From assembly GCA_026393755.1 (NCBI GenBank), contig JAPKZO010000025.1, positions 62,001-126,000 of the forward strand: a DNA stretch of 64,000 bases. The letters are read 5' to 3'. The position numbers and the translations under genes were made by a program. Source of the DNA: Acidobacteriota bacterium (GTDB lineage Bacteria; Acidobacteriota; Vicinamibacteria; Vicinamibacterales; JAKQTR01). Under the pieces are notes generated by a model, which made no database searches, had not been told where the DNA came from, and saw only the letters and a program-made list of their open reading frames with translations. This document shows, in pieces, positions 12,284-63,078 of this stretch. Each line of letters starts with the position of its first letter. Position 1 is the stretch's first letter.

Positions 12284-12284
12284 G

Positions 12285-12941: not shown

Positions 12942-12947
12942 CTGGCG

Positions 12948-42520: not shown

Positions 42521-43228
42521 CTACGACGGGTTGGCCAGGAACTCGCACGCGAGCGCCTGCCATTGATCGTCAGTGAGCAGGTCAGGCGGGTGATCGATAA
42601 AATCTCCGCCGTCGGCCGCCGCGACTCCCAACCGGGCTTCGTAGAACCGCGACAACCGATGTTCCTCCTCGGACAACCAGGCCCGGGCGGCCTTGCCGGC
42701 AGGCAGTTTATGGAACGCCGTGTCGGACGGGTTCACGGCAAACAACCAGCCTCGGGAGTACGGATCGCGGTGAATCAACGACGCGTCCTCGCGCACGGCC
42801 TCGTTGACGCGCGTTATCACGCCGGAGACGGGTGACACAATCGCGGCGCGGCGGCCCGCTGTTCGGACCTCGGCAATGGGCTGTCCTTCGTGAACCTCCG
42901 TGCCCGGCTGCGGCAGCTTCAGCCCGAGCGGGGCGGCGAAGAGGCGCTGTGCGAGGTCGTCGATCCCGACAAGCGCCCGCTGACGCGACACGGGGCGAAT
43001 CCACGTATGCCCGGGAGCGTAGTACACCTGGTCGCTCCAGAACAGGCGTCCGACCCGGACGACTCCACGCAGGCGCCGCCGGATGGCGTCCACGCCTTTC
43101 ATGCCTGTCAGAACCAGGACGGCGGGTACCGAGAGCGCGGCCAGCACAATCAGCAGGAGGCCCACGCGGGCGGTGAGTCCCGCCACCAGTACGGCCGCTG
43201 ATTCCAAGACGCTCAATAGGGTGTCCAT
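42521..43228 (-). CDS. Membrane-anchored GcvH-like protein without lipoyl lysine
   Basis: A 235-aa protein: an N-terminal hydrophobic helix (~20-45), then a domain clearly related to glycine cleavage H protein (YYAPGHTWIRP, VGIDDLAQRLFA, SPVSGVITRVNEAV, DPYSRGWLFAVNP) and a C-terminal tail with LLTDDQWQAL. In GcvH a Lys eight residues before the Pro of the APVSG turn carries lipoate; here Gly is there (AGRRAAIVSP), so it cannot be lipoylated at that site. No glycine cleavage genes are nearby. It is the last gene after a HybA/NrfD pair and a paralogous GcvH-like gene, and probably belongs to that redox complex. Confidence 0.75.
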   Translation of the reverse strand: MDTLLSVLESAAVLVAGLTARVGLLLIVLAALSVPAVLVLTGMKGVDAIRRRLRGVVRVGRLFWSDQVYYAPGHTWIRPVSRQRALVGIDDLAQRLFAAPLGLKLPQPGTEVHEGQPIAEVRTAGRRAAIVSPVSGVITRVNEAVREDASLIHRDPYSRGWLFAVNPSDTAFHKLPAGKAARAWLSEEEHRLSRFYEARLGVAAADGGDFIDHPPDLLTDDQWQALACEFLANPS

Positions 43229-43265
43229 GATGTCCTCGTCTTTCTTCCTGACCCGTTGCCGCCTC

Positions 43266-43427
43266 TCAGATGCGATGACACATCGTGCAGTCGTCCACTC
43301 CGAACGACTTCTTCCCGTCGTGGCACGCGCCGCAGGCCCGGCCCTGCTTCATGGCCTCGTGCGTGATCTTCTTGCCGTCGGTCGCGAGGCCGCTCGTGAG
43401 AATCCTGAACAGGCGTCCTGCTTGTCG
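43266..43427 (-). pseudogene. Two-haem c7-type C-terminal part, out of frame with the GcvH-like gene
   Basis: In the frame following a TGA at 43430-43428 lies LFRILTSGLATDGKKITH, then CGACHDGKKSFGVDDCTMCH and a stop at 43266. The two CxxCH sites and spacing resemble the end of c7-type triheme domains. It has no start of its own. Adding one C near 43411-43412 joins it seamlessly to the preceding GcvH-like protein (LLTDDKQDA-LFRILTSG), so it is probably that protein's C-terminus. Confidence 0.65.
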
Positions 43428-44110
43428 TCAGTGAGCAGGTGCGTCCTCGCGAGTGTATCCCAATGTTCCGGGTCGATGATGCGCGCCATGCCGGAGAGCG
43501 GCAGGCCGCCGTCCTGGAGGAGCGGGCCCAGGCTCCCGCCGTCGAGGGGACAGAGTTTGTCGAGGGCGTCTTCCATCCAGATCCTGGCCAGCTTCCCAGA
43601 GAGAAGATTCCGGGTATTCGACGCGACACTGGAGGGCTTCACCTTCAATAGCCAGCCCTTTCCATACGGATCCTGGTGCACGATCTCGGGGCATTGGAGA
43701 ACCTCGCGGTTGACCTCGACAACTTCACCTGCCACGGGCGACAGCATCGGGATGTGTACGGAATCGACCATGAGGCTCCACCCCATTTCCCCCTGCGCCA
43801 ATCGGGAACCTACGGCGGGCAGTTCGATGGCATCCACCTTGCCGACCAGTTTCTGAGCGAAATCGTCCAAGCCGACGACGCCGATGGAACTGGGTTCCGG
43901 ACGAAGCCAGCCGTGTCCCTGGTGGTAGAAGAGCCCCGCGGGCACCCGGAAGCGAGTGACGTGTTCCGGCGCGGCCCTCGGAACAGCACGCTCCTGGCTG
44001 GGCTGGTCTATGTAGCGGCAGAAGAGGACGAAGGCCGCAAGAAACGAGATGACGATGAGATACTCAATGCCCTTGGTGGCATAGATGTCTATGAAACGGA
44101 CGCCTTCCAT
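43349..44110 (-). CDS. Membrane-anchored GcvH-like protein, C-terminus apparently frameshifted
   Basis: Starts at ATG 44110 with GGAGGT 6 nt upstream, overlapping the NrfD-like gene by 22 nt. An N-terminal helix (EYLIVISFLAAFVLFC) is followed by a GcvH-like domain (YHQGHGWLRPEPSSIGVVG, LSPVAGEVVEVN, DPYGKGWLLKVKP). The lipoyl-Lys position holds Ser (SVHIPMLSP). As read, the frame ends in a non-conserved Arg-rich tail; a one-base shift restores a two-haem c7-type tail ending at 43266. Covalent haem attachment happens outside the cytoplasm, so the restored protein would place its GcvH-like domain in the periplasm. Assembly error and real mutation are both possible. Confidence 0.72.
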   Translation of the reverse strand: MEGVRFIDIYATKGIEYLIVISFLAAFVLFCRYIDQPSQERAVPRAAPEHVTRFRVPAGLFYHQGHGWLRPEPSSIGVVGLDDFAQKLVGKVDAIELPAVGSRLAQGEMGWSLMVDSVHIPMLSPVAGEVVEVNREVLQCPEIVHQDPYGKGWLLKVKPSSVASNTRNLLSGKLARIWMEDALDKLCPLDGGSLGPLLQDGGLPLSGMARIIDPEHWDTLARTHLLTDDKQDACSGFSRAASRPTARRSRTRP

Positions 44111-45384
44111 ACGACCACCTCCATGTCTTCCGCGGCCTCTGCCTCTACCACCTGATGCGCCCCGCCGAACACGGGCATCCGACTGATCACCCACCGGAAG
44201 ACCCAGAGCTCCATGCTGATGATCGCCAACGTCACCCAGATCTCCATCCAGGAGGGGTAGTACCGCACGGTCTCATACCACTTGAACGCGATGACGGAGA
44301 CGTTGAGCCGGTTCAGGATTACCCCCGCCGCCGTGAGGAACGCGGTGAACTGCACGAGCTTCGCGTTGCGTGTTCGAATCGCCACGAGGAAGAGAGCGGT
44401 CGGCAAAAGGACGAACCCGACCAGTTCGAACAGGTACCAGTACCCCATTGGAGTGCCGAGGTAAATCCACTGCCTGTAGTGCACGAAGTCGATGAGCTTG
44501 AGGAAGGCATACGCGAAGAGCGCGCCGACGGCTCCCTTTCCCAGCCCGAGGAGGATGCTGTCATGGGCCGCGTGGAGTTCGTGCCCGATGCGGTCCTTGA
44601 ACGCCTTCTGCGTGAAGAAGCTCTCAATCATCACCATCGAGATCCCTGCGAAGATGCTCGACACGAAGAACAGCACTGGGAGGTTGGCCGAGTACCACAA
44701 GGGGTGGATCTTCGATGGCGCCAGGAGGAACAGCGCCCCCAACCCCGACTGGTGCAGCGTCGACAATGTGATCCCGAAGATGACGGCGCCCGTCGTGAGT
44801 CCCTCCAGAATCCTGCGCGCCCTCGGCCAATTCAGCCATTCCGCGACGGCCGGAGAGAACTCAAGGAACTCGCAGATCATGTACAGCATGAAGTGCCAGG
44901 CCACCAGGAAGAGCACGGAGCCAAACCCGAATGCGTTCCCGATGACGGGGTTGATGACATTCCAGGGGCGTCCCAGGTCCAGCAGGAGCATGCCGGCGTA
45001 GAACAGATAGGCGAGGAAACCATTCAGGACCGTTACGCGAACGATCGGCTCGAACTTCTTAACCTTCAGGATGTGGACAACGAAGGTCAGGACGTACGCG
45101 CCGCCTGCAAAGGCCACCCCCGTGATCACGTCAAAGCCGATCCAGATTCCCCATGGGTAGTTCTGGGAGAGGTTGGAGACCGAGCCGAGCCCATAGGCGA
45201 ACCGGATGACGATCAGCACGAGGCCGGACAGGATGATCGCCCCGGTGATGACGTTGAACGGCGTCAGTATGCTTCCTCTCGGTCTCAACTCGCTCAGGAC
45301 AAAGCGGGCCGTTTCCCAAGCCACCCGCCGAACGGTCATGGCGCCTTCGGCGTGGGCGGTCGACGCGTCAGTCCTGTTCGCCAC
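44089..45384 (-). CDS. NrfD/HybB-family integral membrane quinone-interacting subunit
   Basis: A 431-aa polytopic protein of the NrfD/PsrC/HybB superfamily with ~9-10 helices: YPWGIWIGFDVITGVAFAGGAY, LDLGRPWNVINP, and ESFFTQKAF. In HybB-like proteins this subunit exchanges electrons with menaquinone and may move protons. GTG start at 45384, overlapping the ferredoxin-like gene by 17 nt. The gene pair HybA-HybB usually accompanies the HybO/HybC hydrogenase, but here GcvH-like and haem proteins follow instead, closer in style to Geobacter Cbc-type quinone-cytochrome complexes. Confidence 0.88.
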   Translation of the reverse strand: MANRTDASTAHAEGAMTVRRVAWETARFVLSELRPRGSILTPFNVITGAIILSGLVLIVIRFAYGLGSVSNLSQNYPWGIWIGFDVITGVAFAGGAYVLTFVVHILKVKKFEPIVRVTVLNGFLAYLFYAGMLLLDLGRPWNVINPVIGNAFGFGSVLFLVAWHFMLYMICEFLEFSPAVAEWLNWPRARRILEGLTTGAVIFGITLSTLHQSGLGALFLLAPSKIHPLWYSANLPVLFFVSSIFAGISMVMIESFFTQKAFKDRIGHELHAAHDSILLGLGKGAVGALFAYAFLKLIDFVHYRQWIYLGTPMGYWYLFELVGFVLLPTALFLVAIRTRNAKLVQFTAFLTAAGVILNRLNVSVIAFKWYETVRYYPSWMEIWVTLAIISMELWVFRWVISRMPVFGGAHQVVEAEAAEDMEVVVWKASVS

Positions 45385-46294
45385 GGAGGATCTTCCTCTC
45401 TTCGCTCACCTTGTTGTCCTTGATGAGGTAATTCAACCCGAACAGGAGTGACGGCCACAGAACGAACACGAGGGGCACCCCGTACAGGAATCCGGACGTG
45501 AGTTCGGGATAGGGAGTCGTGCCCAGATTGGTCCGCAGGCCGAGCTTTTCTTCTGGGGCGCCCATCAGGTAGAGCCAGCCGGTGCCGCCGGCCTCGTGCT
45601 CCCCATAGATCCGATGGACGTACTTGTCCGGAGCCTTGTAGATCCGGGTCCTGGCGATCTCCAGCAGATCCCGTTTCTTCCCGAACAGGGTCGCGCCGGT
45701 CGGGCACACCTCGGAACAGGCGGGCAGCTCCCCCTTCTGCTGCCGTTCGTTGCAGAAGTCGCATTTCCACACGAATGGAGCGGCACTGTCGTACTCGAAC
45801 TTCGGGATGTCGAAGGGGCAGGCGATCATGCAGTAGCGGCACCCCATGCAGCGGTCCTTGTGGTAGATGACCGCCGCCTCCTTGGTCTTCTCCATCGCCT
45901 TGCACAGGCACGCGGAGGCGCAGGCCGGCTGGTCACAGTGCATGCACTGCTTCCGGACGAAGATCGGCTCATCCGGCTTCTTCTCGTTCGGGAACCGGTT
46001 CACGACCGTGAAAGCCCCGGTGGTGGTGTCGCGCGTCGTCTCGAACACGTTCGCACTAGAGAAGGAGGCCGCCGGCGTGGGCAGTTTGTTTGCCTCGTTG
46101 CAGGCCGCCTCGCAGGCGCGACAACCGATGCATTTTGTCGTGTCGATGAGCATCCCGTTGAACTCGACGTCCCCCTGCGAAGTCCGGTGCAACTGCGCCG
46201 CCTGGGCCGACGGCCCGCCCCCGGCGAGCAGGCCGCCGCCGGCCGCTCCCGCCATCCCCGCCACTCTTAAGAACAATCGTCGATTGAGCTTCAT
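45368..46294 (-). CDS. HybA-like Tat-exported 4x[4Fe-4S] ferredoxin
   Basis: A 308-aa periplasmic ferredoxin. The twin-arginine signal is NRRLFLRVAG. Four cysteine clusters follow: CIGCRACEAAC, CMHCDQPACASAC, CMGCRYCMIACPFDIP, and CDFCNERQQKGELPACSEVCP. The C-terminal helix (SGFLYGVPLVFVLWPSLLFGLNYL) would anchor it to the outer face of the membrane, as in HybA. It should pass electrons between the NrfD-like subunit and a periplasmic donor or acceptor. Confidence 0.92.
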   Translation of the reverse strand: MKLNRRLFLRVAGMAGAAGGGLLAGGGPSAQAAQLHRTSQGDVEFNGMLIDTTKCIGCRACEAACNEANKLPTPAASFSSANVFETTRDTTTGAFTVVNRFPNEKKPDEPIFVRKQCMHCDQPACASACLCKAMEKTKEAAVIYHKDRCMGCRYCMIACPFDIPKFEYDSAAPFVWKCDFCNERQQKGELPACSEVCPTGATLFGKKRDLLEIARTRIYKAPDKYVHRIYGEHEAGGTGWLYLMGAPEEKLGLRTNLGTTPYPELTSGFLYGVPLVFVLWPSLLFGLNYLIKDNKVSEERKILRGEQD

Positions 46295-46324: not shown

Positions 46325-46408
46325 TCACCAGCGGCTGCGTGGCGCGGCGAGTGTTGAGCAGCCGACCAGGACAAGGCCGACCAGCGCCAGCACGGTGATG
46401 AGCATCAT
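46325..46408 (-). CDS. 27-residue hydrophobic peptide with lipobox-like motif
   Basis: ATG 46408 overlaps the upstream gene's TGA by 4 nt and follows GGGAGGG. The product is one hydrophobic segment, MMLITVLALVGLVLVGCSTL, ending in AAPRSRW. LVGC could be a lipoprotein signal or simply part of a single-span helix. Its tight placement between two genes of the HybA-NrfD operon suggests a small accessory subunit or assembly peptide; expression is unproven. Confidence 0.4.
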   Translation of the reverse strand: MMLITVLALVGLVLVGCSTLAAPRSRW

Positions 46409-46629
46409 CGGGAGCCCTCCCTGCGAGTGGAGTCAGGTGACGAAGAGGCTGTCGCTCGTTGCGTACTCGCCCGGATGCGGGACACCACATCCGTGAACAG
46501 GGGACAGGCCTCGTAATCGCGGCCCAGGCACGGATCCGCCGACGCGATGCGGTCGAGAGGCACGAGCTTCTTGACCGGATAGGCCTGGCAGTAGAGCATC
46601 ACCACTTCCTTCAAGTACGGGCAGGCCAT
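46405..46629 (-). CDS. Small cysteine-containing protein, first gene of the HybA-NrfD operon
   Basis: A 74-aa soluble protein from ATG 46629 (GGAAGGTG ribosome site). Conserved-looking N-terminus MACPYLKEVVMLYCQAYPVKK, then CLGRDYEACPLF. Four cysteines (residues 3, 14, 34, 42) could bind zinc or an FeS cluster. I do not recognise the family. It is first behind a good sigma54-type promoter and overlaps the 27-residue ORF by ATGA. Confidence 0.6.
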   Translation of the reverse strand: MACPYLKEVVMLYCQAYPVKKLVPLDRIASADPCLGRDYEACPLFTDVVSRIRASTQRATASSSPDSTRREGSR

Positions 46630-46662: not shown

Positions 46663-46678
46663 AGCAAGTTTCCCGCCA
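46663..46678 (-). promoter_or_regulatory. Sigma54 (-24/-12) promoter of the HybA-NrfD-GcvH operon
   Basis: Minus strand TGGCGGG (46678-46672), 4 bp, TTGCT (46667-46663): invariant GG and GC at exact spacing. The expected +1 is ~20 bp before the first gene. TGTTGCACA (46711-46719), a TGT-N3-ACA palindrome, lies upstream as a possible activator site. Confidence 0.65.
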
Positions 46679-47063: not shown

Positions 47064-48233
47064 ATGTCCGGCGAAGAAGACGCCAGCCGTCCGACGAATC
47101 AGTGCCCGCGATGTCGGGCGGACGTGCACGCCCGGGAGGCAACCTGTCCGCAGTGCGGGGTCGATCTGGTCCTGGCGGCCGTGCTGGTGGAGCGTCTGGC
47201 GCTTAGCGTGATTCCCGCCGAGGCTGGGGCACGGTTCCTCGGTGACGCCATGCTGTCGCGGTTTGGCGAGTTCCTGATGAAGAAGGGCTACATCACGGAA
47301 ACCCAGCTGAATGCCGCACTGGCGCGACAGCGCGAGATGTCAACCGGAGGTGTGCGCGAAACGCTGGGCCAGGTGTTGCTCGAGATGCGCGTGATGACGC
47401 GAGAACAACTGGAGTTGGCCAGCGTCGAGCAGGTCCAGGACCTGCAGACCGCGCTCCGGCAGGTGAACACCCAACTCGAACAGCGAGTCGCGGAGCGCAC
47501 GAAGGAGCTGCAGGCGGCGTATCAGCGCCTCGCGGAACTGGATCAACTCAAAGGCAATTTCATCAACAACATCTCACACGAGCTGCGCACACCGCTGACG
47601 AAGATCAAAGGCTTCAACATGCTCCTGGCTGCCGGAGATCTGGGTGCGCTCACCGAAGATCAGGTGCAGGCCGTCCAGACGATGGGGCGCGGGATCTCGG
47701 AACTGGAGCGGCTGGTCGCCGATCTGATCCAGTTCGCCACGGGTGCCCGCGGAGAGATGACGTTACGTCAGGCGCCGATCGCGGTCGCGGCCATCCTGAC
47801 TGAGTGCGTGACGGAAGCCACCGAGAAGGCGAAACGCCGCGGGGTCGAGATGCGACTCGAGGTGTCGGACGGTCTGCCGCAGGCGGTGGCGGACGGCGAA
47901 CGCATTCGCTGGGTGTTGAACCACTTGATTGACAACGCGGTCAAGTTCACTCCTCAGGGCGGAACTGTCACGGCGGGCGCAGCCGTCGCCGGCGACCGGG
48001 TGCGCGTGTGGGTGGCAGATACCGGAGAGGGCATCGCGGCCGAGAAAATGCCGGAACTCTTCGAGGCGTTTCATCAGCTCGACGGATCGACCACGCGCCG
48101 CCAGGGCGGTACCGGGCTCGGTCTGGCGCTCGTGAAGATGATTGTCGAGGGCCATCAGTCCAGCGTCGCCGTCGAGAGCGAACCCGGGAAGGGCAGCCGA
48201 TTCTCGTTCGATCTCGCGATGGCCGCGCGTTAG
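47064..48233 (+). CDS. Soluble histidine kinase with N-terminal zinc ribbon and MshEN-like domain
   Basis: About 389 aa from ATG 47064 (no strong ribosome site; ATG 47022 is an alternative). Order: zinc ribbon (C14-C17, C28-C31: CPRC and CPQC); a region like the N-terminal domain of type II secretion/pilus ATPases (MshEN-like; FGEFLMKKGYITETQLNAAL, LGQVLLEMRVMTREQL); a coiled coil; HisKA (NISHELRTPLTKIKG); and HATPase (LIDNAVKFTPQGG, DTGEGIAAEK, GTGLGLALV). No membrane helix, so a cytoplasmic sensor. In other proteins MshEN domains bind c-di-GMP, which would link it to the c-di-GMP operon at 34-40 kb. Convergent with, and overlapping by 4 nt, the NtrC-type regulator gene. Confidence 0.82.
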   Translation: MSGEEDASRPTNQCPRCRADVHAREATCPQCGVDLVLAAVLVERLALSVIPAEAGARFLGDAMLSRFGEFLMKKGYITETQLNAALARQREMSTGGVRETLGQVLLEMRVMTREQLELASVEQVQDLQTALRQVNTQLEQRVAERTKELQAAYQRLAELDQLKGNFINNISHELRTPLTKIKGFNMLLAAGDLGALTEDQVQAVQTMGRGISELERLVADLIQFATGARGEMTLRQAPIAVAAILTECVTEATEKAKRRGVEMRLEVSDGLPQAVADGERIRWVLNHLIDNAVKFTPQGGTVTAGAAVAGDRVRVWVADTGEGIAAEKMPELFEAFHQLDGSTTRRQGGTGLGLALVKMIVEGHQSSVAVESEPGKGSRFSFDLAMAAR

Positions 48234-49606
48234 CGCGCGTCCCCGTTGCGCTCCTCGCCGCGCCGCAATCCGTACTTCTTGATTTTGTTGTAGAGCGTCA
48301 CGCGATCGATGCCGAGCGTCCGGGCCGCCTGGGTGACGTTTCCGCCCCCATCGTGGAGGACCGCCGCGATATGGCGGTGCTCGACTTCGTCGAGCGAGAG
48401 CGTGACGTCGATGGGGGCCGGCCGCGGCGCGGCGGCCTCGAGGCCGAGATCCTCCGGCATGATCAGCGAACCCTTCGCCACCACCATGCCCCGTTCCAGC
48501 ACGTTTCGCAGTTCGCGGACATTGCCTGGCCAGCCGTAGCGCATCAGCGTCGCCAGCGCGTCGGCGCTGATCTCCTCGATGCGGTGGCTCATCTCCAGAT
48601 TCAGGTGTTCCAGAAAATGCTCGACCAGCAAGGGAATGTCTTCGAGCCGCTCGCGCAGGGGCGGCAACATAATCGGAATGACGTTCAACCGATAGTACAG
48701 GTCGTCGCGGAACTGACCGCTCTCGGAAGCCTTCCGCAGATCCCGGTTCGTGGCGGCGATGATCCGGACGTCAACCTCCACGGGTTCTGATCCGCCGACG
48801 CGGCAGAACGTCCGCTCCTCGAGCACGCGCAACAGGTCGAGCTGGAGCTTTGGAGAGATGTCGCCGATCTCGTCGAGAAACAGCGTGCCGCCGTGCGCCA
48901 GTTCGAATTTGCCTTTCCGCCGGCTGAGCGCCCCGGTGAACGAACCCCGCTCATGCCCGAACAGTTCGGACTCGAGCAGCGTCTCTGTGAGCGCCGCGCA
49001 GGACACGGCCACAAACGGCGCCGACTGCCTCGGGCTTTCGGCGTGGATGGCCCGTGCCAGCAACTCCTTGCCTGTCCCGCTCTCGCCGAGGATGAGCACG
49101 GTGGACTGACTGCGTGCGGCGCTCCGGGCCAGCTCGAACATGCGATGCATCACCGGGCTCTTGCTGATCATGTCGCGAAAGTGATAATCGCGTTTGAGCA
49201 CCTTGCGCAACAGCACGTTCTCGCGCACGAGTTGCTGCTGGGCGACAATCTTCACCATCATCAGGCTGAGTTCCTCCGGATCGAACGGCTTGACGAGGTA
49301 GTCGTAGGCGCCCATCTTCATCGCTTCGACCGCGGTCTCGACGGTCGCGTAGGCGGTCATGATGACGATGGCAACATCGGGCTGGATGGTCTTGGCGGTC
49401 TGGAGCACCAGCAGGCCGTCCATGCCGGGCATCTTCAAGTCGACGAGCAGGATGGACCAGCGCCCTTCCCTGAGCTTGTCGATGGCTGTCGGCCCGTCCG
49501 CGGCGGTGTCGAGCGTATAGCCATCCTTGGCCAGCCAGCCCGACAGCGACTCCCGCACGATTTCCTCATCGTCGACGACCAGGACCCGGGTTCGTTCCTT
49601 ACTCAT
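48230..49606 (-). CDS. NtrC-family sigma54-activating response regulator
   Basis: Receiver (VVDDEE, phospho-Asp in LLVDLKMPG, KPFDPEEL), AAA+ with GESGTGKE and an intact GSFTGA loop (GHERGSFTGALSRRKG), and a Fis-type HTH (VTQAARTLGIDRVTLYNKIKKYG). ATG 49606 starts at MSKERTRVLVVDDEE with AAGGA upstream. Third gene of the operon kinase - archaemetzincin - regulator. It is the natural activator for the three sigma54 promoters at 46.7, 51.9 and 57.9 kb, including its own. Its kinase partner is most likely the CxxCH sensor encoded in the same operon. Confidence 0.92.
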   Translation of the reverse strand: MSKERTRVLVVDDEEIVRESLSGWLAKDGYTLDTAADGPTAIDKLREGRWSILLVDLKMPGMDGLLVLQTAKTIQPDVAIVIMTAYATVETAVEAMKMGAYDYLVKPFDPEELSLMMVKIVAQQQLVRENVLLRKVLKRDYHFRDMISKSPVMHRMFELARSAARSQSTVLILGESGTGKELLARAIHAESPRQSAPFVAVSCAALTETLLESELFGHERGSFTGALSRRKGKFELAHGGTLFLDEIGDISPKLQLDLLRVLEERTFCRVGGSEPVEVDVRIIAATNRDLRKASESGQFRDDLYYRLNVIPIMLPPLRERLEDIPLLVEHFLEHLNLEMSHRIEEISADALATLMRYGWPGNVRELRNVLERGMVVAKGSLIMPEDLGLEAAAPRPAPIDVTLSLDEVEHRHIAAVLHDGGGNVTQAARTLGIDRVTLYNKIKKYGLRRGEERNGDAR

Positions 49607-50153
49607 GATGATCATCCTTCTGATGCAATGCCTGGTAGCGGGCTTCACAGTCGGCGCAGAGCGACACGCGCTTGGCGTCGACTTCGATCAGGTTCACAGA
49701 CCGGGCCATCACGCAGGCCGGCGAGTCGCAGTGAATCAGGCCGAAGGTATGGCCGAGTTCGTGAACGCACTCCTTGAAGACGCGGCTGTCAAAGAGGCGC
49801 CTGTCCGGATCGGCTTCGGGCGCGGCGGCGAGCCTGGCGGTGGACACCACCGCGGCGGTGCCGCCCAGTTGGGCCTCGCCGTACACGAAGGTCAGCACGG
49901 GAATGAACAGGTCCACGTCCGTGACGGCGAGGGTGCGGCTCCCGGCCCGCGAGCGGCCCACCAGCCACTTGAGAATCTCCGTCGACGAGTACTGGCCGCG
50001 GCGCGGATCGAACGCGTGTGCGGGGCGATCGGCTCGATGATCGACCCTGACCGTGACGCCGAACACGGATTGAATGGCTCGCCCGACGACGTCGAGCAGG
50101 CGGCCGTCGGGCGCATCGGCGCCCAGCCACCAAATCTGGACGTCCGCCGTCAT
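49599..50153 (-). CDS. amzA: Archaemetzincin-type zinc protease
   Basis: A ~184-aa metzincin with the full archaemetzincin signature: catalytic HELGHTFGLIHC, then CVM and CADC, which form the second (CxxC-type) zinc site unique to this family. Archaemetzincins are found mainly in archaea and vertebrates and sporadically in bacteria; substrates are unknown. It lies between the CxxCH sensor kinase and the NtrC-type regulator, overlapping the latter by 8 nt, so it is produced with a signalling pair. ATG 50177 is an alternative start. No signal peptide, so cytoplasmic. Confidence 0.85.
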   Translation of the reverse strand: MTADVQIWWLGADAPDGRLLDVVGRAIQSVFGVTVRVDHRADRPAHAFDPRRGQYSSTEILKWLVGRSRAGSRTLAVTDVDLFIPVLTFVYGEAQLGGTAAVVSTARLAAAPEADPDRRLFDSRVFKECVHELGHTFGLIHCDSPACVMARSVNLIEVDAKRVSLCADCEARYQALHQKDDHHE

Positions 50154-50169
50154 CGTGCGTCGACACCCA

Positions 50170-51771
50170 TTAGGCATCCGCCTTTCGGGCGGCCGGCAAC
50201 ACGATCGTGAAGGTCGTGCCCTTGCCGACCTCGCTTTGGATGTCAATCGTGCCGTGGTGCCGTTCGACGATGCCGTACACGACGGACAGGCCGAGGCCCG
50301 TGCCCATTTCCTTCGTGGTGAAGAACGGATCGAAGATCTTGGCGAGCCTGTCGGGCGGGATGCCGGCACCCGTGTCCGCGAAGACCAGTTCAACCCCGGT
50401 GGCGCCCTGGGTCGGCTGGCACGAGATGGTCAGGGTGCCACCGTCCTTCATGGCTTCACAGGCATTCAGCATGATGTTGACGAACGCCTGCCGCAGTTGA
50501 CCGAAGTCGGCCTGGATGGGGGGCAGCGCGCCGGCGTGCCCATTGATGGCGATGCCGTGCAGCTTGGCCTGGTGGCCGACAAGAGAGACCGCCTCGTCAA
50601 GGACGGCTGACGGATCGACCTCCTTCAACGCGAGCGGCCGCTGTCTGGCAAATTCGAGGAGGTTGCGGACGATGGCCGTGCATCGTTCGGTCTCGCGCTG
50701 GACCAGTTTCAGGTGACGGACGCACGTGACGCGTGTCTGGTCGTCGAGTTCGCCGCCCTCGAGCACCCGGACGAGCAGCTTGGCGTACGTCAGAATGCCC
50801 GCCAGTGGATTGTTGATCTCGTGAGCGATCGACGCCGCCAGCCTGCCGAGCGAGGAGAGCTTCTCGGATTGCACGAGCTGGGTCTGCGCCTGCTTCAAGT
50901 CGGCCGTGCGTTCCTCAACCTGGTGTTCGAGCGTTTCGAGCAGTTGAAGACGTTCGGCTCTCGCCTTGCTCAGCGCCGCCACCATCTCGTTGAACCACAG
51001 GCCGAGCACGCCCAACTCTCCGGTTCGCGCGACCGGGATCTTGTGCGTCAAGTCGCCCGCGCCGATCTGCCGAGTGGCGAATGCAAGCGCGACAACGGGG
51101 TTCACGACCCGTCGCTGTGCGTACAGCCCGACGAACGCTCCGAGCAGCAGGACGGCGACGCCGGCCATCAGCAGCGTGTTCCGTCGGATGCGCAGGAGGT
51201 TCGTGTCGATATCTTTGAGCGAAATGCCAATGTCGATCACGCCCAGCACGCGCTTGCTCGGCGGATGGACGTGGCAGGCGGCGTTCGAACAGCCCGGTTC
51301 GTTGTAAATCGGCGTCACCATGCCCAGGACGCGATGTCCGCGGGCATCGTAGATTCGACTCCGCGTTCCCGTCGCCAGTCGCTCGAGCGGCCGCCCAGCC
51401 TCGTGGCAGCGGTAGCAGGCCTCGGCGCTCTTGTCGACCATGGCCCCGACCTCGGTGCGCTCGGTCGAGAACGTGACCCGCCCTTCCTTGTTGAAGAAGC
51501 GGACTCGATCGATGCCCGATTGGTGGCCAATCGTGTCCATCACCAGGTAGGCATTCTCGCGACGGTCGGCCAGCATGTCGTGATACGTGCTGCTCTTGAT
51601 GGTCTCGCTGAACAGTTCCGCGCCCCGGACGACCTCGGCCACCAGGTATCGTTCTTGCGCGCGCAGGAACAGCGCCGCTGCCGTGCCGACAACGGCCAGC
51701 GTGCCCACCGCGATGACGAGCGGCAACTGAACGCTCAGCCGGTTCCACCACCGGACCGACGACAGCGGCAT
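50170..51771 (-). CDS. Sensor histidine kinase with c-type haem motif in its periplasmic domain
   Basis: A 533-aa kinase: TM1 (~16-37), periplasmic domain (~38-190), TM2 (~192-212), HAMP, HisKA (SIAHEINNPLAGILTYAK), and HATPase (NIMLNACEAMKDGG, DTGAGIPPD, GTGLGLSVV). The periplasmic domain carries CYRCH (C119-C122-H123), a c-type haem attachment site, plus CSNAACH (C161...C166-H167), a wider CxxxxCH that might hold a second haem or an axial ligand. A redox, O2 or NO signal is therefore likely. First gene of the operon with archaemetzincin and the NtrC-type regulator, behind a sigma54 promoter. Confidence 0.9.
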   Translation of the reverse strand: MPLSSVRWWNRLSVQLPLVIAVGTLAVVGTAAALFLRAQERYLVAEVVRGAELFSETIKSSTYHDMLADRRENAYLVMDTIGHQSGIDRVRFFNKEGRVTFSTERTEVGAMVDKSAEACYRCHEAGRPLERLATGTRSRIYDARGHRVLGMVTPIYNEPGCSNAACHVHPPSKRVLGVIDIGISLKDIDTNLLRIRRNTLLMAGVAVLLLGAFVGLYAQRRVVNPVVALAFATRQIGAGDLTHKIPVARTGELGVLGLWFNEMVAALSKARAERLQLLETLEHQVEERTADLKQAQTQLVQSEKLSSLGRLAASIAHEINNPLAGILTYAKLLVRVLEGGELDDQTRVTCVRHLKLVQRETERCTAIVRNLLEFARQRPLALKEVDPSAVLDEAVSLVGHQAKLHGIAINGHAGALPPIQADFGQLRQAFVNIMLNACEAMKDGGTLTISCQPTQGATGVELVFADTGAGIPPDRLAKIFDPFFTTKEMGTGLGLSVVYGIVERHHGTIDIQSEVGKGTTFTIVLPAARKADA

Positions 51772-52079: not shown

Positions 52080-52739
52080 CTAGTCTTCGACGCGAATGAT
52101 GTCCTGTTTGAGGGCGAACCGAATCAGTTCCGTGCGGCTGTGGAGTGCCAGTTTCTCCATCACGCGCTCGCGATGAGACATCGCGGTCTTGATGCTGATG
52201 CCCAGCAGGTCGGCGACCTCCTTGTTGCTATGGCCTTCGGCGACCAGCTTCAGGACCTGCTTCTCACGGTCGGTGAGTGATTCGTAGGGGTCGGCATCCC
52301 CGCCCCCGGGTCCGAGGCCGTCGCGTTCCTTCATCGCCTCACGGGCGACGTCCGGGTCGAACACGAGGCCGCCCCGGTGGACGGCGCGGATTGCGGCGGT
52401 CAGATCCGATCCGGCGGACTTCTTGAGGACGTACCCGGACACGCCGGCCTTGAGGAAGCGGCGGATGTACTCACGGTCTTCGTACTGGGACAGCACGAGA
52501 ATGCGCGCGTTCGGACAGATCTTCCTGATTTCAATCGTGGCTTCGAGGCCGCCCAGGCCCGGCATCGCGATGTCCATCAGGCATACGTCTGGATTGAGGG
52601 CCAGAGCCTTGGCGATCGCTTCGCGGCCGTCGGCCGCTTCGCCCACGACCTCCATGTCGTCGGCGAGATTGAGCAACGCCTTCACGCCCTCCCGGACGAT
52701 CGCGTGGTCATCGGCAATCAGAACGCGAATCTTAGACAC
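52080..52739 (-). CDS. NarL/FixJ-family response regulator
   Basis: A 219-aa two-domain regulator: receiver (IADDHAIVREG, phospho-Asp in CLMDIAMPG, KKSAGSDL) and LuxR/NarL-type HTH (LTDREKQVLKLVAEGHSNKEVADLLGIS). It overlaps the upstream NarX-like kinase by 8 nt, so it is the cognate partner. Last gene of the cytochrome - protease - kinase operon. LuxR-type regulators act on sigma70 promoters, so this pair adds a second regulatory layer to the neighbourhood. Confidence 0.93.
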   Translation of the reverse strand: MSKIRVLIADDHAIVREGVKALLNLADDMEVVGEAADGREAIAKALALNPDVCLMDIAMPGLGGLEATIEIRKICPNARILVLSQYEDREYIRRFLKAGVSGYVLKKSAGSDLTAAIRAVHRGGLVFDPDVAREAMKERDGLGPGGGDADPYESLTDREKQVLKLVAEGHSNKEVADLLGISIKTAMSHRERVMEKLALHSRTELIRFALKQDIIRVED

Positions 52740-54594
52740 GAGCCACCTCCGGTGGCACCTGTACGGACACGACGAGGCGAGTTCCCTGGCCCGGTGCCGT
52801 GTCGATCAGGACCTTGCCGCCGATCGCCTCGACGCGCTCGGTGATGCCGAGCAGGCCCCATCCATGCCCGTCTTCGGCGGGCCGGCTGATGGCTGCTCGA
52901 TCGAATCCCTCACCATCATCCTCGATTTCAATCGTGAGCACATCACCCCTGATGCCGCACTGGATCAACACCTGTTCCGCCTGCGCGTGCCTGGCGATGT
53001 TGCTGATCGCCTCCTGGACGACCCGGAACAGTGCCGTCTCCATCAGCGGCGGCAGGCGGCGCTCGACGTCGTTGAACTCGCAGCGGACCGCGACGCCGAG
53101 GGTGTTCAGGTGGCGGTCGGCGTACCAGGCGATGGCGGACCACAGCCCGAGATCGTCGAGCACCGACGGACGCAAGTCATAGATCAGGCGATGGAGTTCG
53201 TCGAGCGTGCGGACCGCGAGCGCGCGCGCTTCGATGAGCGGCCCGCTGTCCACGCCCGGCGGCAGTCGGGCGACGGCCGTCTCGAGGCGCATCGCGAGGA
53301 CGCTGACGGTCTGACAGGTTTCGTCGTGCAATTCACGGGCGAGGCGCTTGCGTTCGTCCTCCTGCGCGGTGATGACCTGGCGAAGCAGCCGGCCGCGCGC
53401 TTCCTCGCGCTCTGCCAGTTGCCGGTACAGCACCTCGCGTTCACGCGTGCGTTCTTCCACCCGGGCTTCGAGCGTCGCATTCGACTGTTCGATGGCGTCC
53501 ATCGACGCCTTGAGCGCCGCCCGCATGTGCTCGAGAGACCGTCCGAGGCGGCCGACTTCATCCTCACCGAGCGGGGGAATCGCCAGATCCAGATCACCCG
53601 ACGCAATGCGTTCGGCGGCACGACGGAGCACGCCGATCGGGCGCAGCACGCTTTGCGCGACCCCGTCGGCAAAGAGCAGCCCGAGGACGACCAGCAACGG
53701 CACCCAGAAGAACAGGGAACGGCGCAGGCGGTTCGCATCGGCGAGCGTGGCGGTCTCCGGTTCCCGCAGGCTCAGCGCCCAGTGCATCTGGCGGATCGGC
53801 ACGATGGCGGTCACCTGTTCGACGCCGACCTTGCTGCGATCGTGACAGGAGGTACACGTCCCGCGGATGTTCGTGCCCGATCGAAGCAGTGACGCGATGA
53901 GCTGAGGATGTTCATCCCGCCGGCCTCGCCGTTGCGCGTCGGAACTGGCGACAACGATGCCAAGCGCGTCGACCAGATCGATCGCGCCGCCCTCCGCGAC
54001 GGGCTGCTCACGCAGCAGACCGATCATGCGCGGGCTGGCCGGATCGATTTCTCCGCCGGCCACGCCAATCGGCACGCCCCGCCAGTCCTTGATGGGCACA
54101 AACAGATAGACCCGATCGCCGGTCGGTGTGCGGGCAACGGCAGACGCCGACGGCCGTTCGGCCTTCAGTGCGTCGCGGCTGGCTGGAATCACCGCCTCGG
54201 CCCCGGGCTGCGGCGGCGGGTCCTGCTTCAGCACGAGCCCATCGGCATTGGTGACAAACGCCCGATCGATCAGTTCGCCTTGCAAGTACGCGTTGCGCAA
54301 GGCCTCATCGCGGGGCGAAAGCGCGGCAACGGTCCGTCCGGTCGCGGCGTCAGGCGCGGCGGCCACCTCCTGGAGGCGCCGCCATTCGCGCTGGAGTACG
54401 CTTTCGACGTGGCGGGCGGCGACAGCGGCGTCCGATTCGCGTTCGACGACGATGCGATCGGTCAGCGCCGCCAGGCTGTGCCAGGCGATCCAACCGGGCA
54501 CCACCGTCGACGCGAACAGCCCAAGCCCGACCAGCAGGGCCACGCGCCCCTGCAGGCCGCGCATCTGCCATCGGGAAGAAGTCGCCTTGGTCAT
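52732..54594 (-). CDS. NarX-like sensor kinase (HisKA_3) with CxxCH motif
   Basis: A 620-aa kinase: TM1 (~16-42), a large periplasmic domain (~43-285) ending in CTSCH (C247-C250-H251), TM2 (~287-312), HAMP, a coiled coil, and HisKA_3 (RELHDETCQTVSVLAMRLE) with a NarX-type HATPase (AISNIARHAQAEQV, DDGEGFDR, GLLGITERVEAIGG). The C-type haem motif just before TM2 parallels the other periplasmic CxxCH kinase of this locus. It overlaps the 195-aa membrane protein gene by 1 nt (TGATG) and its regulator by 8 nt. Confidence 0.9.
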   Translation of the reverse strand: MTKATSSRWQMRGLQGRVALLVGLGLFASTVVPGWIAWHSLAALTDRIVVERESDAAVAARHVESVLQREWRRLQEVAAAPDAATGRTVAALSPRDEALRNAYLQGELIDRAFVTNADGLVLKQDPPPQPGAEAVIPASRDALKAERPSASAVARTPTGDRVYLFVPIKDWRGVPIGVAGGEIDPASPRMIGLLREQPVAEGGAIDLVDALGIVVASSDAQRRGRRDEHPQLIASLLRSGTNIRGTCTSCHDRSKVGVEQVTAIVPIRQMHWALSLREPETATLADANRLRRSLFFWVPLLVVLGLLFADGVAQSVLRPIGVLRRAAERIASGDLDLAIPPLGEDEVGRLGRSLEHMRAALKASMDAIEQSNATLEARVEERTREREVLYRQLAEREEARGRLLRQVITAQEDERKRLARELHDETCQTVSVLAMRLETAVARLPPGVDSGPLIEARALAVRTLDELHRLIYDLRPSVLDDLGLWSAIAWYADRHLNTLGVAVRCEFNDVERRLPPLMETALFRVVQEAISNIARHAQAEQVLIQCGIRGDVLTIEIEDDGEGFDRAAISRPAEDGHGWGLLGITERVEAIGGKVLIDTAPGQGTRLVVSVQVPPEVARV

Positions 54595-55181
54595 CAGCGT
54601 CCGCGCTCATCCATGCTATTCGCGATCAGCATGATCTCGTCGAGAGTACCACGGTACCGCGCGAGCAGAGCCACGCCCGACGCCTGCCAGGTCAGCTGGT
54701 ACCACATGACGCCGTCGCGATCGCGCAGCCGGTCGACCCTCGCCGGAACTCCCCGGACCACAGTGTTCTCGGTCTGGAGTGAGGAAGCGGGCGGCAGGAT
54801 CTCGGGGGCGATGCCTCGGGCATCCACCGCCAACCCCACAATCAGCCAGGTGTCGCCACGCTGCCGGTGCCGGAACGACATCGACGCCGACGTGCCTTCG
54901 AAGATCAGGAGGTCATGCGGGGGCCACATCAACGTGTCGGGAAAGTAGGCCGGAATGGGCAGTTTGTGCGACAGTTGGCGTTCGAGCGCGACAACCGAGT
55001 CCACGCGCCGTACGCCCCGGTCTACGCCCGCGGCCATTCCCGGCAGTTGGTCAAGGACGCGGAGCCCGAACGCGGCGGCGGCCAGCAGTGCGGCGAGTTC
55101 CAGCGTGGCCCGAAGGGCAGCGATCCAGCCGGGCAGACGCCTTGCGGAGGTGCTGGTCCCCGGGGCGGAGGGGGTAGTCAT
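54594..55181 (-). CDS. Membrane-anchored protein of unknown function
   Basis: A 195-aa protein with one hydrophobic helix (ATLELAALLAAAAFGLRVLDQL, ~25-45) and a ~145-aa probably extracytoplasmic domain rich in beta-prone sequence (LLIFEGTSASMSFRHRQRGD, MWYQLTWQASGVALLARY). No cysteines in the mature part and no motif I recognise. It sits 12 bp after the M56-like protease and overlaps the NarX-like kinase start, so it may be a protease substrate (an anti-regulator) or a modulator of the kinase; this is inference from position. Confidence 0.55.
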   Translation of the reverse strand: MTTPSAPGTSTSARRLPGWIAALRATLELAALLAAAAFGLRVLDQLPGMAAGVDRGVRRVDSVVALERQLSHKLPIPAYFPDTLMWPPHDLLIFEGTSASMSFRHRQRGDTWLIVGLAVDARGIAPEILPPASSLQTENTVVRGVPARVDRLRDRDGVMWYQLTWQASGVALLARYRGTLDEIMLIANSMDERGR

Positions 55182-55193
55182 ATCGTCGTTTCG

Positions 55194-56171
55194 CTACACA
55201 ACGAAGAAGAGCAGGGTGCATAGACCGGCGGCGACCAGGCCGAAGCGAAGCGGGCCGAGACCGGTTCGACTGGGTTCAGGTTGGGTAAACACGCGCTCGC
55301 ACCTGTTTCCGACGGCGACCAGTTCCGCGCGGACACGCAGACGGCGAGAAAAGTCTCCCCTGGCATGCGGCGGTACCAGATCGGTCTCACTGTCGCCGGT
55401 GTCGGCCAGCGCCGCAATCGCCCCGGCTAATGCCGCGGAGTGACCAAGCCGAGCGACGGTCACGTCGGCGCGGTACTCGAGTTCCTGCACGATTTGCCGC
55501 GAGACCACCTGCGCGGCCGGACTGAACCACGCCACGGTGCGCACGACCATGAGCAGCCAGCCCATGAGGGGATCGCGGCGCGCGGCGTGCGCCATCTCGT
55601 GCGCGAGGGCGGCGCGCAATTGATCGTCGCTCAGACGGCTGAGCGTGCCGGTCGAGATCACGAGGGTGAGACGAGCGACGCCTGAACACAGGAGAACTGG
55701 CACGGGACGATCGAGGAGCAGGATCGTCATTTCGGGGGCGCCGAGGGCCGGTTGAAGGTCGTTGAGCAGGCTCCGGACCTTGACGATGTCGGGGTGGTCT
55801 GTGACTGAGTCGCGCTCTCCCACGCCGCGAACGCGGTCGTCGAGAAACGGGAGGGCGTCGCGCAAGTAGAGCAGCAGTCCCAGAATCAGCAGCGTCACGG
55901 TCGCAAGAGACGCTGTTCCGACCGGGCCCAACCTCAGCTGATTCCAGTGCTCACCGGCGAACAGGGCTCGAGCCGATCCAAACCACTCTGTGGACCGGAC
56001 GGGCGCGAAGATGTGGAACGCGGCGGGAAGAATGATGGGCGCAACCAGAGCCAGCCACCGCAGGGCCAGACGTTCGCCCGGATCCTGCATCCGCCAGATC
56101 CGAAGCAGCGCCTCGACCAGGAGGGCGGCAATGCAACCGTGCAGGATGACCAGGCCCGCTGTGTCCAGCAA
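55194..56171 (-). CDS. M56/M48-like integral membrane metallopeptidase
   Basis: A 325-aa protein with about four membrane helices and the zinc motif HEMAHAARRD (HExxH) followed by a likely third ligand in QELEYRADVTVARLG. The layout resembles the protease half of BlaR1/MecR1 (M56) more than soluble M48 enzymes; no penicillin-binding sensor domain follows. Such proteases cleave regulators or envelope proteins next to the membrane. It is in an operon with haem proteins and a two-component pair (4-nt gap after cytochrome b, 12-nt gap before the anchored protein). Confidence 0.78.
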   Translation of the reverse strand: MLDTAGLVILHGCIAALLVEALLRIWRMQDPGERLALRWLALVAPIILPAAFHIFAPVRSTEWFGSARALFAGEHWNQLRLGPVGTASLATVTLLILGLLLYLRDALPFLDDRVRGVGERDSVTDHPDIVKVRSLLNDLQPALGAPEMTILLLDRPVPVLLCSGVARLTLVISTGTLSRLSDDQLRAALAHEMAHAARRDPLMGWLLMVVRTVAWFSPAAQVVSRQIVQELEYRADVTVARLGHSAALAGAIAALADTGDSETDLVPPHARGDFSRRLRVRAELVAVGNRCERVFTQPEPSRTGLGPLRFGLVAAGLCTLLFFVV

Positions 56172-56175
56172 CAGG

Positions 56176-56862
56176 CTATGACTCCTCGATGTCCTGGACC
56201 TGCTTGAGCCGCTCCAACTCGAGCGGGTGCTCGTCGTGCATGCGCTCCAGGCTGATCTTGCCGGTGAAGATCGTCTTGTCGAACGGAAACACGTCCGGAT
56301 TGAGATGCGCGTTGTAGATATGCCAGAGGATGACGACCAGAAACGCCATCAGGCCTTCGTTGCTGTGCGCCACCTTGGCCGCCGGAATCAATTCTCCCGG
56401 AAAGAAACGGGTGAACAGGATTGGGAAATACAGGATCAGGCCGGTGGAGATGACGACCACCGCGCCGAGGACGAGTCCCCAATACTCGAACTTCTGGCGA
56501 TAATCGAAGCGATCAAACTGCGCGGGCTGATCGATGCGGCCCAGGTAATACCGCATCATCTGGATCGCATCGTCAAAATCCTTGCGATTGGGCACGATCG
56601 ACAGCGGCGACCGTCCCGCCGCGACCGATCCGATCGCGAACATGACATGCCAGACCGTCAGCGTCGCGAACGACAGGCCCGCGATCCGGTGGAACCAGCG
56701 GAGATGATCGATGCCGCCCGTCAGGTCGATGAACCAGCGTGCCCACGCGGCGTCGAAGTACTTCTGGGGCAATCCCGTCACCGACAAGACGATGAAGAGC
56801 GACATCACCAGCGCATGTTCGACGCGCTGGCGGAAGGTGAAGCGTGTGAAATACGTGCTCAT
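56176..56862 (-). CDS. Di-haem cytochrome b561-like membrane subunit
   Basis: A 228-aa protein with four to five helices and several helix-embedded His: RVEHALVMSLFIVLSVTGLPQ, RWFHRIAGLSFATLTVWHVMF, KVAHSNEGLMAFLVVILWHIYNAH. This is the pattern of formate dehydrogenase gamma/NiFe-hydrogenase cytochrome b and thiosulfate reductase-type b subunits that bind two b haems and react with quinone. Overlap of 4 nt with the multihaem cytochrome gene means the two form one quinol:cytochrome electron-transfer unit. Confidence 0.85.
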   Translation of the reverse strand: MSTYFTRFTFRQRVEHALVMSLFIVLSVTGLPQKYFDAAWARWFIDLTGGIDHLRWFHRIAGLSFATLTVWHVMFAIGSVAAGRSPLSIVPNRKDFDDAIQMMRYYLGRIDQPAQFDRFDYRQKFEYWGLVLGAVVVISTGLILYFPILFTRFFPGELIPAAKVAHSNEGLMAFLVVILWHIYNAHLNPDVFPFDKTIFTGKISLERMHDEHPLELERLKQVQDIEES

Positions 56863-57896
56863 CGGTTGACAACCACTCGCCAGAAATGCAGTAGCATCTG
56901 CAGGACCAGGCCGCTGATCATGAAGGGTATCAGGATGTTGTAGAAGAGCTGCACGCCGTAGACCAGCGGCGCCTTCTTCCAGCTCGGTTCGTAATGCGAC
57001 ATCCAGGCGCCCGGAAAGTTCTCGGTTGCGCCGGCGTGGCAGCGGGCGCAGGTCTCGACCAGGTTGGCCCGCAATACCCGTGAGCCCGGCTCGTTGACCT
57101 TCGCGATGTCGTGCACGCCGTGGCAGTCGGTGCAGAGCGCGACGACGCTGACCTCGCGGCCGGTGTCAGTTTCGTGAAGCGTCGCCGTCATGCCGTGAAA
57201 GTCTGCCACGTAGGTCTGGGCGACCGCCGTGGACAATCCGTACTTCGCCATCAGGCGCTTGTTCTCGTGGCATCCGCGGCAGAGTTCCGGAGTGCGGCGC
57301 TGCCAGTTCACGTCCTTGGGACCGGCGACATCGTGGGAACGATGGCAGTCGGTGCACCCAGGCACGTCGTCGCTCTTCTCGAGGAAGCGCCCGTGAACGC
57401 TCTTGTTGTACACCGTGAACACGCCCTCGTGGCATTTCGCGCACGTGCGCGATATCTGCGACTTGGGTTTCTGGGGCGACTTGACGTCGTGCGCACCGTG
57501 ACAGTCGACACAGAGAGGAGCCGTGCGATCGCCGCGCGCGAGCGCTTGGTAGTGCACGCTGTCGAGCGTCTTGGTGTAGTTATCGAAGTGGCAGCGCTTG
57601 CACTGTTCGTAGTACGCGACCGTGAACTCCCGCAACGTCTTGAAGGGACGCGCCTCGTGGGGCACGGCGGTCATGTCCTGGTGGCAGTCGGCACAGCCAA
57701 TCTTGTTGCCATGCACGGACGCCCGGAACATCGCCACATCGACGTACAGCGACCGGATCTCCCCGCTCGGAAGCGTGACAGCCATGCTCCGATCGCCGTG
57801 GCAGGCCAGGCACGTCTCCACATCGGCGGCCTTGCCTGTTGCGGCCTGGCCGGGCTGCAACGACAGAGTCAGAAGAAGAAACAACGTTGATAACAT
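56859..57896 (-). CDS. Nine-CxxCH multihaem c-type cytochrome with C-terminal membrane anchor
   Basis: From ATG 57896 the ~345-aa protein has a signal peptide (MLSTLFLLLTLSLQPGQA) and nine CxxCH sites: CLACH, CADCH, CKRCH, CVDCH, CAKCH, CTDCH, CRGCH, CTDCH, CARCH. A C-terminal helix (LFYNILIPFMISGLVLQMLL) anchors it. Repeated CxxCHGAHD/CHRSHDV-type motifs resemble NrfH/NapC-linked and octahaem-type respiratory cytochromes. The in-frame ATG at 57977 lies beyond the sigma54 promoter and is rejected. First gene of a six-gene operon with cytochrome b, and likely takes electrons from the quinone pool to periplasmic acceptors. Confidence 0.9.
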   Translation of the reverse strand: MLSTLFLLLTLSLQPGQAATGKAADVETCLACHGDRSMAVTLPSGEIRSLYVDVAMFRASVHGNKIGCADCHQDMTAVPHEARPFKTLREFTVAYYEQCKRCHFDNYTKTLDSVHYQALARGDRTAPLCVDCHGAHDVKSPQKPKSQISRTCAKCHEGVFTVYNKSVHGRFLEKSDDVPGCTDCHRSHDVAGPKDVNWQRRTPELCRGCHENKRLMAKYGLSTAVAQTYVADFHGMTATLHETDTGREVSVVALCTDCHGVHDIAKVNEPGSRVLRANLVETCARCHAGATENFPGAWMSHYEPSWKKAPLVYGVQLFYNILIPFMISGLVLQMLLHFWRVVVNR

Positions 57897-57947
57897 GAAC
57901 GACCCGCGATGAACTGACCATGAATCGAGCGTACCCAACTCATCCAC

Positions 57948-57982
57948 AGCAAGTCGATTGCCAGATTTGAGAATCACTCAAA
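57948..57982 (-). promoter_or_regulatory. Sigma54 promoter of the multihaem cytochrome operon
   Basis: Minus strand TGGCAAT (57963-57957), 4 bp, TTGCT (57952-57948), ~50 bp before ATG 57896. Immediately upstream is TTTGAG-AATCA-CTCAAA (57966-57982), an inverted repeat that may be an activator or repressor site. Confidence 0.7.
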
Positions 57983-60388: not shown

Positions 60389-60671
60389 GTCGGTCACCTC
60401 TGGCCCCGGCAATCTCGTTGCGCACATCTTCGGCCATCAGATCGTCCTGTTCGGCCTGCGTGATCAACTGCTCGTACAGCGCGAGCGTCTCGGCAATCTC
60501 TGATTCGGGAATCCGCCGGATGGCGAAGCCGACGTGGTTCAGGATGTAGTCGCCCGGCGCGACCGGCTCGTCAACGACATCGAGTTGTACCTGGCGGCGC
60601 ACGCCCCAGAAATCCACCGTGGCCACATTGCCGGCCACTTCAATCACCTTTCCGGGAACGCCTAGGCACAT
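60375..60671 (-). CDS. hypC: Hydrogenase maturation chaperone HypC
   Basis: A 98-aa HypC/HybG/HupF family protein. It begins MCLGVPGKV, with the essential N-terminal Cys exposed after Met removal, and has VDFWGVRRQVQLD and PGDYILNHVGFAI. HypC binds HypD and carries the Fe(CN)2CO moiety to the large subunit precursor. Slightly longer than usual (~75-90 aa) at the C-terminus. It overlaps hypF by 10 nt and hypD by ~14 nt. Confidence 0.95.
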   Translation of the reverse strand: MCLGVPGKVIEVAGNVATVDFWGVRRQVQLDVVDEPVAPGDYILNHVGFAIRRIPESEIAETLALYEQLITQAEQDDLMAEDVRNEIAGARGDRRAVD

Positions 60672-62971: not shown

Positions 62972-62998
62972 GGCTGGAAGATCCTGCGAACTGCAGCC

Positions 62999-63027
62999 GT
63001 TATATCTGTTCGAGCAGTCGGAGTCCA
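62999..63027 (-). promoter_or_regulatory. Sigma70-like promoter of the hypFCDE operon
   Basis: Minus strand TGGACT (63027-63022), 17-bp spacer, TATAAC (63004-62999). The predicted leader is ~20 nt. I find no -24/-12 element here, unlike the cytochrome operons. Confidence 0.5.
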
Positions 63028-63078
63028 TAGCAGGAGAACCGCCGGGACTGTTCTGGTGCTGTATGCCACAATGTCGAG

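Follow-up and report, generated by a model that had tools for sequence, protein, structure and literature searches.

Predicted GcvH-fold proteins lacking the lipoyl lysine accompany HmcB/HmcC-like genes in Acidobacteriota and other bacterial phyla

GcvH is the carrier protein of glycine cleavage, and its lysine holds lipoic acid. Recruitment of the GcvH fold to energy metabolism is exemplified by the LbpA lipoate-binding proteins of sHdr sulfur oxidation, in which the lipoyl lysine is strictly conserved (PMC6067878). Tail-anchored HybA-like proteins paired with NrfD-like subunits, sometimes together with a c cytochrome, have also been described, and the available part of that account does not mention a GcvH-like subunit (PMC10924467). 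Here we analyse a stretch of 64,000 nucleotides from an acidobacterial genome, hereafter the window. As a first-pass annotation had recognised, two paralogous GcvH-like genes directly follow an HmcB/HybA-like and an HmcC/NrfD-like gene on its minus strand.

The operon-like run extends from 46.63 to 42.52 kb on the minus strand and encodes a small Cys-rich protein, the HmcB-like and HmcC-like proteins and the two GcvH-like proteins; the genes for a sensor kinase, an M54 archaemetzincin-like protein and an NtrC-type regulator lie upstream on the same strand (Table 1). The GcvH-like proteins are designated type A and type B, labels that, like type C below, were coined in this analysis. NF045715 (HmcB) is the best-scoring family for the HmcB-like protein, with 360 bits and below the equivalog cut-off of 420, and the same protein reaches 235.5 bits against the HybA equivalog, below the cut-off of 263. 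For the HmcC-like protein the best-scoring family is NF045714 (HmcC), with 387 bits and below the equivalog cut-off of 550; sequence search returned no solved homologue of HmcC. The M54 protein passes the PF07998 profile with an HExxHxxGxxHC motif readable in the window ORF, and its same-genus orthologue scores 150 bits against NF033823 (cut-off 145). No Rfam elements were found in the window.

Table 1. Predicted features of the gene run and its upstream regulatory genes (window coordinates)
Feature	Position	Strand	Remarks
Sensor histidine kinase	50170..51771	minus	CxxCH and Cx4CH in sensor part
M54 archaemetzincin-like protein	49599..50153, start estimated	minus	HELGHTFGLIHC motif; PF07998 77.9 bits, window 49638-49943
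NtrC-type sigma-54-activating response regulator	48230..49648	minus	PF00158 238 bits, PF00072 102 bits
Sigma-54-like -24/-12 site TGGCGGGAAACTTGCT	46663..46678	minus	upstream of operon; 10/12 consensus positions matched
Small Cys-rich protein	46405..46629	minus	homologous to N-terminal domain of type C GcvH-like proteins
HmcB/HybA-like Fe-S protein	45368..46294	minus	twin-arginine-type N-terminus, hydrophobic C-terminal tail
HmcC/HybB-like NrfD-family quinone subunit	44089..45384	minus	PF03916 51 bits
Type A GcvH-like protein	43349..44110	minus	Ser117 at lipoyl-Lys position; frameshifted tail past ~43412
Triheme c7 cytochrome gene remnant	43266..43411	minus	two CxxCH left
Type B GcvH-like protein	42521..43228	minus	Gly125 at lipoyl-Lys position; basic stretch after a long N-terminal helix

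Further gene groups lie elsewhere in the window. A second cluster (52080-57977) encodes a 9-haem cytochrome c (56859-57977), a cytochrome b561-type protein (56176-56862), a kinase and a response regulator, and similar multihaem and cytochrome b genes occur near the GcvH/HmcBC module in loci L094 and L097. The hydrogenase maturation genes HypC, HypD and HypF (by Pfam), with an AIRS-domain protein consistent with HypE, occupy 58209-63028, and no hydrogenase structural subunit was recognised beside them. Complex I/hydrogenase-4-like membrane subunits (NADHdh and Proton_antipo_M by Pfam) are encoded at 10814-13901, within a gene run of ~9.2-16.1 kb.

The assignment of an H-protein fold to both proteins stands, on sequence profiles and predicted structures alike. 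Both pass Pfam GCV_H (PF01597; type A 80.4 and type B 68.6 bits, cut-off 22.2), and both fall under the cut-off of the NCBIfam gcvH equivalog TIGR00527 (79.3 and 61.9 bits, cut-off 115.85). AlphaFold2 models have mean pLDDT values of 87.1 (43349-44110 protein) and 85.4 (42521-43228 protein), and Foldseek places GcvH crystal structures best for both, with E 7e-13, a target-normalised TM of ~0.9 and an rmsd of ~1.5. The shared fold spans ~125 residues, and identities to the majority of solved GcvHs are roughly 23-35%. In a profile alignment with 13 canonical GcvHs, all of which carry the lysine (13/13, including the GcvH of the same genome), the lipoyl-Lys column is occupied by Ser117 in type A and Gly125 in type B, as the first-pass annotation had read, and both residues sit between two strands of a predicted hairpin. 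The canonical GcvH of this genome, with an ESVKA motif, is encoded on another contig beside ORFs reading as GcvT and GcvP; the GcvH-like pair lies away from gcvT/gcvP and adjoins HmcB/HmcC instead.

Loss of the lysine extends to the orthologues. Among the 182 homologues surveyed, the canonical column holds lysine in 18, namely 7/72 of type A, 10/54 of type B and 1/49 of type C, and lipoylation is therefore no conserved property of the family. We nevertheless considered that a shifted or minority lysine might still be modified by a dedicated ligase, the window proteins being degenerate members. The column after the canonical one does hold lysine in 31/72 type A proteins (arginine in 18/72), and with the 18 canonical-column lysines this could be taken in favour of modification; however, lysine is not conserved at either place and is absent from both window proteins (the next column of the type A protein holds valine), the contexts of the canonical-column lysines, as listed, differ from ESVKA, and no lipoate ligase was recognised among the recurrent neighbours. 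Retained modification is hence highly improbable.

The first-pass annotation had further attributed C-terminal c haems to one GcvH-like protein, which would require export of that protein. The two CxxCH motifs (43320-43334 and 43275-43289) are real, but they lie in another reading frame than the GcvH-like gene. Relatives carry these motifs in a gene of their own, which codes for a triheme c7 cytochrome of ~115-126 residues with a signal-peptide-like start and lies between the two GcvH-like genes. Alignment with a same-genus genome (G001) reveals a 211-bp deletion, with window position 43412 bridging 9914 and 10126 of L036, which took the stop codon of the GcvH-like gene together with the start, the signal peptide and the first haem site of the cytochrome. 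The remnant is the sole match to this c7 cytochrome in the genome, with no second intact copy, and the deletion may be an assembly error. We thus reject the haems as part of the GcvH-like protein; since they belong to a separate, truncated gene, the argument for export, which arose from a reading-frame error around that gene, falls with them.

How, then, are these proteins placed at the membrane? As had been noted, both window proteins begin with an N-terminal helix. In type A the anchor has a consensus like VDIFATKGIEYLLVIGFLL--FWR and resembles HmcD: 22/57 type A proteins match the HmcD model NF045712 at E <= 0.01 (best 5e-7), the window protein not being among them, and the match detailed scored 20.6 bits, under the model's cut-off of 34. 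In type B generally, as in the window protein, the helix is followed by a basic stretch. Inspection and hydropathy reveal neither a signal peptide nor a clear or strong helix in type C, which starts with a Cys-rich domain; the small Cys-rich protein of the window is a homologue of one such domain, which 12 proteins carry in fused form (E values as low as 6e-25). Proteins of L084, L088 and L133 run from a type B anchor through a REC domain (>100 bits) to a GcvH-like domain, and L088 encodes a second REC-GcvH protein.

REC domains work in the cytoplasm. In 65/72 type A and 47/54 type B proteins, the flank of the helix next to the domain is richer in lysine and arginine than the other, the positive-inside rule being a statistical one and AlphaFold giving no membrane side. 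Because of the REC fusions, the signal-peptide-less Cys-domain fusions and this charge bias, the GcvH domain most likely faces the cytoplasm. The REC fusions with a transmembrane helix are of type B, and the side of type A is therefore read from charges and paralogy only. The first-pass annotation had placed the domains probably in the periplasm, as a structural or electron-relay part of a quinone complex. Although the HmcB-like protein and the c7 cytochrome face the periplasm and the type A gene usually follows HmcC, as it does in the window, the haems lie in another frame and gene, and the fusions and charges point, largely if indirectly, to the opposite side, making a periplasmic GcvH-like part very unlikely. 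Of that proposal, the partnership of a GcvH fold with a quinone complex survives as a conserved genomic association with periplasm-facing HmcB/HmcC in many phyla, whereas the periplasmic side is disfavoured and a role of the GcvH-like proteins in electron relay finds no support.

The association recurs well beyond this genome. A strong type A match is present in 18/60 related genomes, including this one, and almost all of these have another GcvH-like gene nearby. A scan of named genomes with the type A profile collected 80 loci from more than ten phyla, about nine of which repeat genomes already counted; they come from Deltaproteobacteria/Desulfobacterota, Syntrophus relatives, Gemmatimonadota, Planctomycetota, Acidobacteria, Ignavibacteria/Chlorobiota, Caldithrix, KSB1, Nitrospinae, Nitrospirae, Rokubacteria, Schekmanbacteria, Eisenbacteria and Bacteroidetes. 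Each locus holds one to four GcvH-like genes. HmcB and HmcC are present in 62-63 of the 80 loci; among the 37 loci that extend for at least 4.5 kb in either direction, 33 have them. Given how the loci were collected, this association is conditional on type A. The recurrent module comprises a diheme-sensor kinase, an NtrC-type regulator, an M54-like protein, often a sigma-54 site, HmcB, HmcC and lipoyl-less GcvH-like proteins. Among acidobacterial genomes, M54 occurs in 31/33 with type A above ~150 bits, hand-tallied from score tables, versus 94/396 overall (Fisher p 2e-19, which overstates the link because these genomes are mutually related). No description of the module was found in open-licence PMC papers on GcvH alongside NrfD/HybA/HmcC, on operons with archaemetzincin, on HmcD or on lipoate proteins resembling GcvH; confined to this literature, the absence is weak evidence, and the module is apparently undescribed so far.

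Putative membrane proteins of small size whose N-termini resemble each other (e.g. KAGFYWNPRAWDI) are encoded beside the module in L094 (1648-1959 and 10062-10379), L097 (6404-6820) and L095 (4405-4809).

No recurrent neighbour family in the 80 loci corresponds to HmcA, HmcE or HmcF. The lack of HmcE and HmcF, together with the Cys-domain-GcvH fusions and their conserved cysteines, raises the idea of a cytoplasmic electron arm, in which the Cys-rich domain binds an Fe-S or other redox centre and is held against the quinone module by GcvH-like proteins that replace HmcE/HmcF. However, the small Cys-rich protein matches no known Fe-S family in Pfam or NCBIfam, its cysteine pattern could equally bind zinc, and types A and B carry no Cys domain, so that we regard such an arm as rather unlikely.

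The regulatory genes have recurrent features of their own. Of the 51 kinases in the set, the first copy of which was detected through its similarity to the window kinase, 50 combine a single CxxCH with a longer C-x(3-5)-CH motif, which suggests a periplasmic c-type diheme sensor. Sigma-54-like sites occur upstream in 35/88 loci, versus 0.018 expected per locus (450 nt), a statistical support for sigma-54 control of the operon that, as for the diheme sensor, is at the level of motifs. L132, L135, L140 and L142 have a GcvH-like gene without HmcBC, so a role of the GcvH-like proteins independent of the quinone module is possible. They could belong to a signalling module, mainly relaying redox signals that pass between the membrane complex and the two-component system or M54, without being respiratory subunits. 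The REC-GcvH fusions would suit such a role, as would loci that combine a kinase, a regulator, M54 and a GcvH-like gene and lack HmcBC, where sigma-54 sites precede these genes too; yet HmcB/HmcC accompany the proteins in nearly all well-covered loci and type A has an HmcD-like anchor, and a mainly signalling function seems to us unlikely.

The Desulfobacterales-type loci L135-L143 have a type C gene, mostly with regulator, M54 and kinase, and no HmcBC, and a sigma-54 site often lies ahead. They are possibly a stripped-down version of the system.

Within the window, the run itself is apparently mosaic. DNA from 46242 to 43412 (~46.24 to 43.5 kb) is ~80% identical to loci L064 and L099 from deltaproteobacterial MAGs; the same block shares mostly 42-70% identity with G001, versus mostly 82-91% for its flanks. 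In HmcB and HmcC trees the window sequences group with L099 and L064 (support 0.96-1.0), whereas the small Cys-rich protein shares 89% identity with its G001 counterpart and the type B GcvH-like protein 88%. Because block and flank identities, trees and G001-like neighbours differ in this way, HmcB-HmcC-type A seems to have been swapped as a block into a resident operon, and the HmcB-HmcC-GcvH segment has the look of a mosaic insert from Deltaproteobacteria, apparently exchanged between phyla. The truncated cytochrome is located at the downstream edge of this block.

Taken together, the fold, the lysine loss, the conserved operon and the regulators, as seen in sequence or predicted structure, lead us to a reading that we hold at about even chances: the proteins would be cofactor-free GcvH-fold subunits of an Hmc/Hyb-type quinone-linked module, with their GcvH domains on the cytoplasmic side. 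Membership of a complex, a docking function, the direction of electron flow and the signal sensed are what we infer beyond this. In the scheme proposed, the kinase would read a redox state or a ligand through its periplasmic c-diheme sensor and phosphorylate the adjacent NtrC-type regulator, whereupon the sigma-54 promoter would fire. The operon would then yield the exported HmcB-like Fe-S protein and the HmcC-like NrfD-type subunit, plus the c7 cytochrome where intact, and the HmcB-like/HmcC-like pair would exchange electrons between quinone and periplasm. Type A may join the complex through its HmcD-like helix, and type A, type B and the Cys-domain paralogues may expose their barrel on the cytoplasmic side, where a cytoplasmic partner or signal would dock. 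A more far-reaching version, which we put forward tentatively and would sooner doubt than assert, is that a cytoplasmic GcvH adaptor family in HmcD-anchored, membrane-anchored, REC-fused and Cys-domain-fused forms physically links HmcB-HmcC to diheme-kinase/sigma-54/archaemetzincin signalling, in a widespread, undescribed module that would be redox-responsive and respiratory.

If true, this would give the GcvH fold a non-carrier role in bacterial respiration, suggest that the HmcD peptide is a membrane anchor able to carry a cytoplasmic domain, and provide a genomic context for bacterial M54 archaemetzincin-like proteins. The module occurs in many lineages that are known chiefly from metagenomes (Desulfobacterota, Gemmatimonadota, Planctomycetota, Acidobacteriota, Ignavibacteria and others) and may represent overlooked electron transport.

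Compared with canonical GcvH, the window proteins share the fold, but the lysine is replaced and a membrane anchor and a DGG-containing C-terminal extension are added; unlike LbpA, they do not keep the lipoyl lysine. The RnfC_N/NqrA_N barrel-sandwich hybrids, which also occur in electron-transport complexes, belong to the same broad barrel class and gave weak matches under the threshold (17.8 bits, cut-off 25.6), whereas sequence and structure searches put the window proteins with GcvH. With E. coli hydrogenase-2 (HybA/HybB) the locus shares a Tat-type, tail-anchored Fe-S protein beside an NrfD-type quinone subunit, yet no hydrogenase subunit was recognised in the window operon. The Hmc complex of Desulfovibrio (HmcA-F) has the HmcB-/HmcC-like pair in the same order, and the HmcD-like type A anchor usually comes after HmcC; unlike in that complex, HmcA, HmcE and HmcF are not recurrent partners and the HmcD-like helix bears a GcvH-like domain, and beyond it the module adds GcvH-like paralogues, a diheme kinase, an NtrC regulator and an M54 protein.
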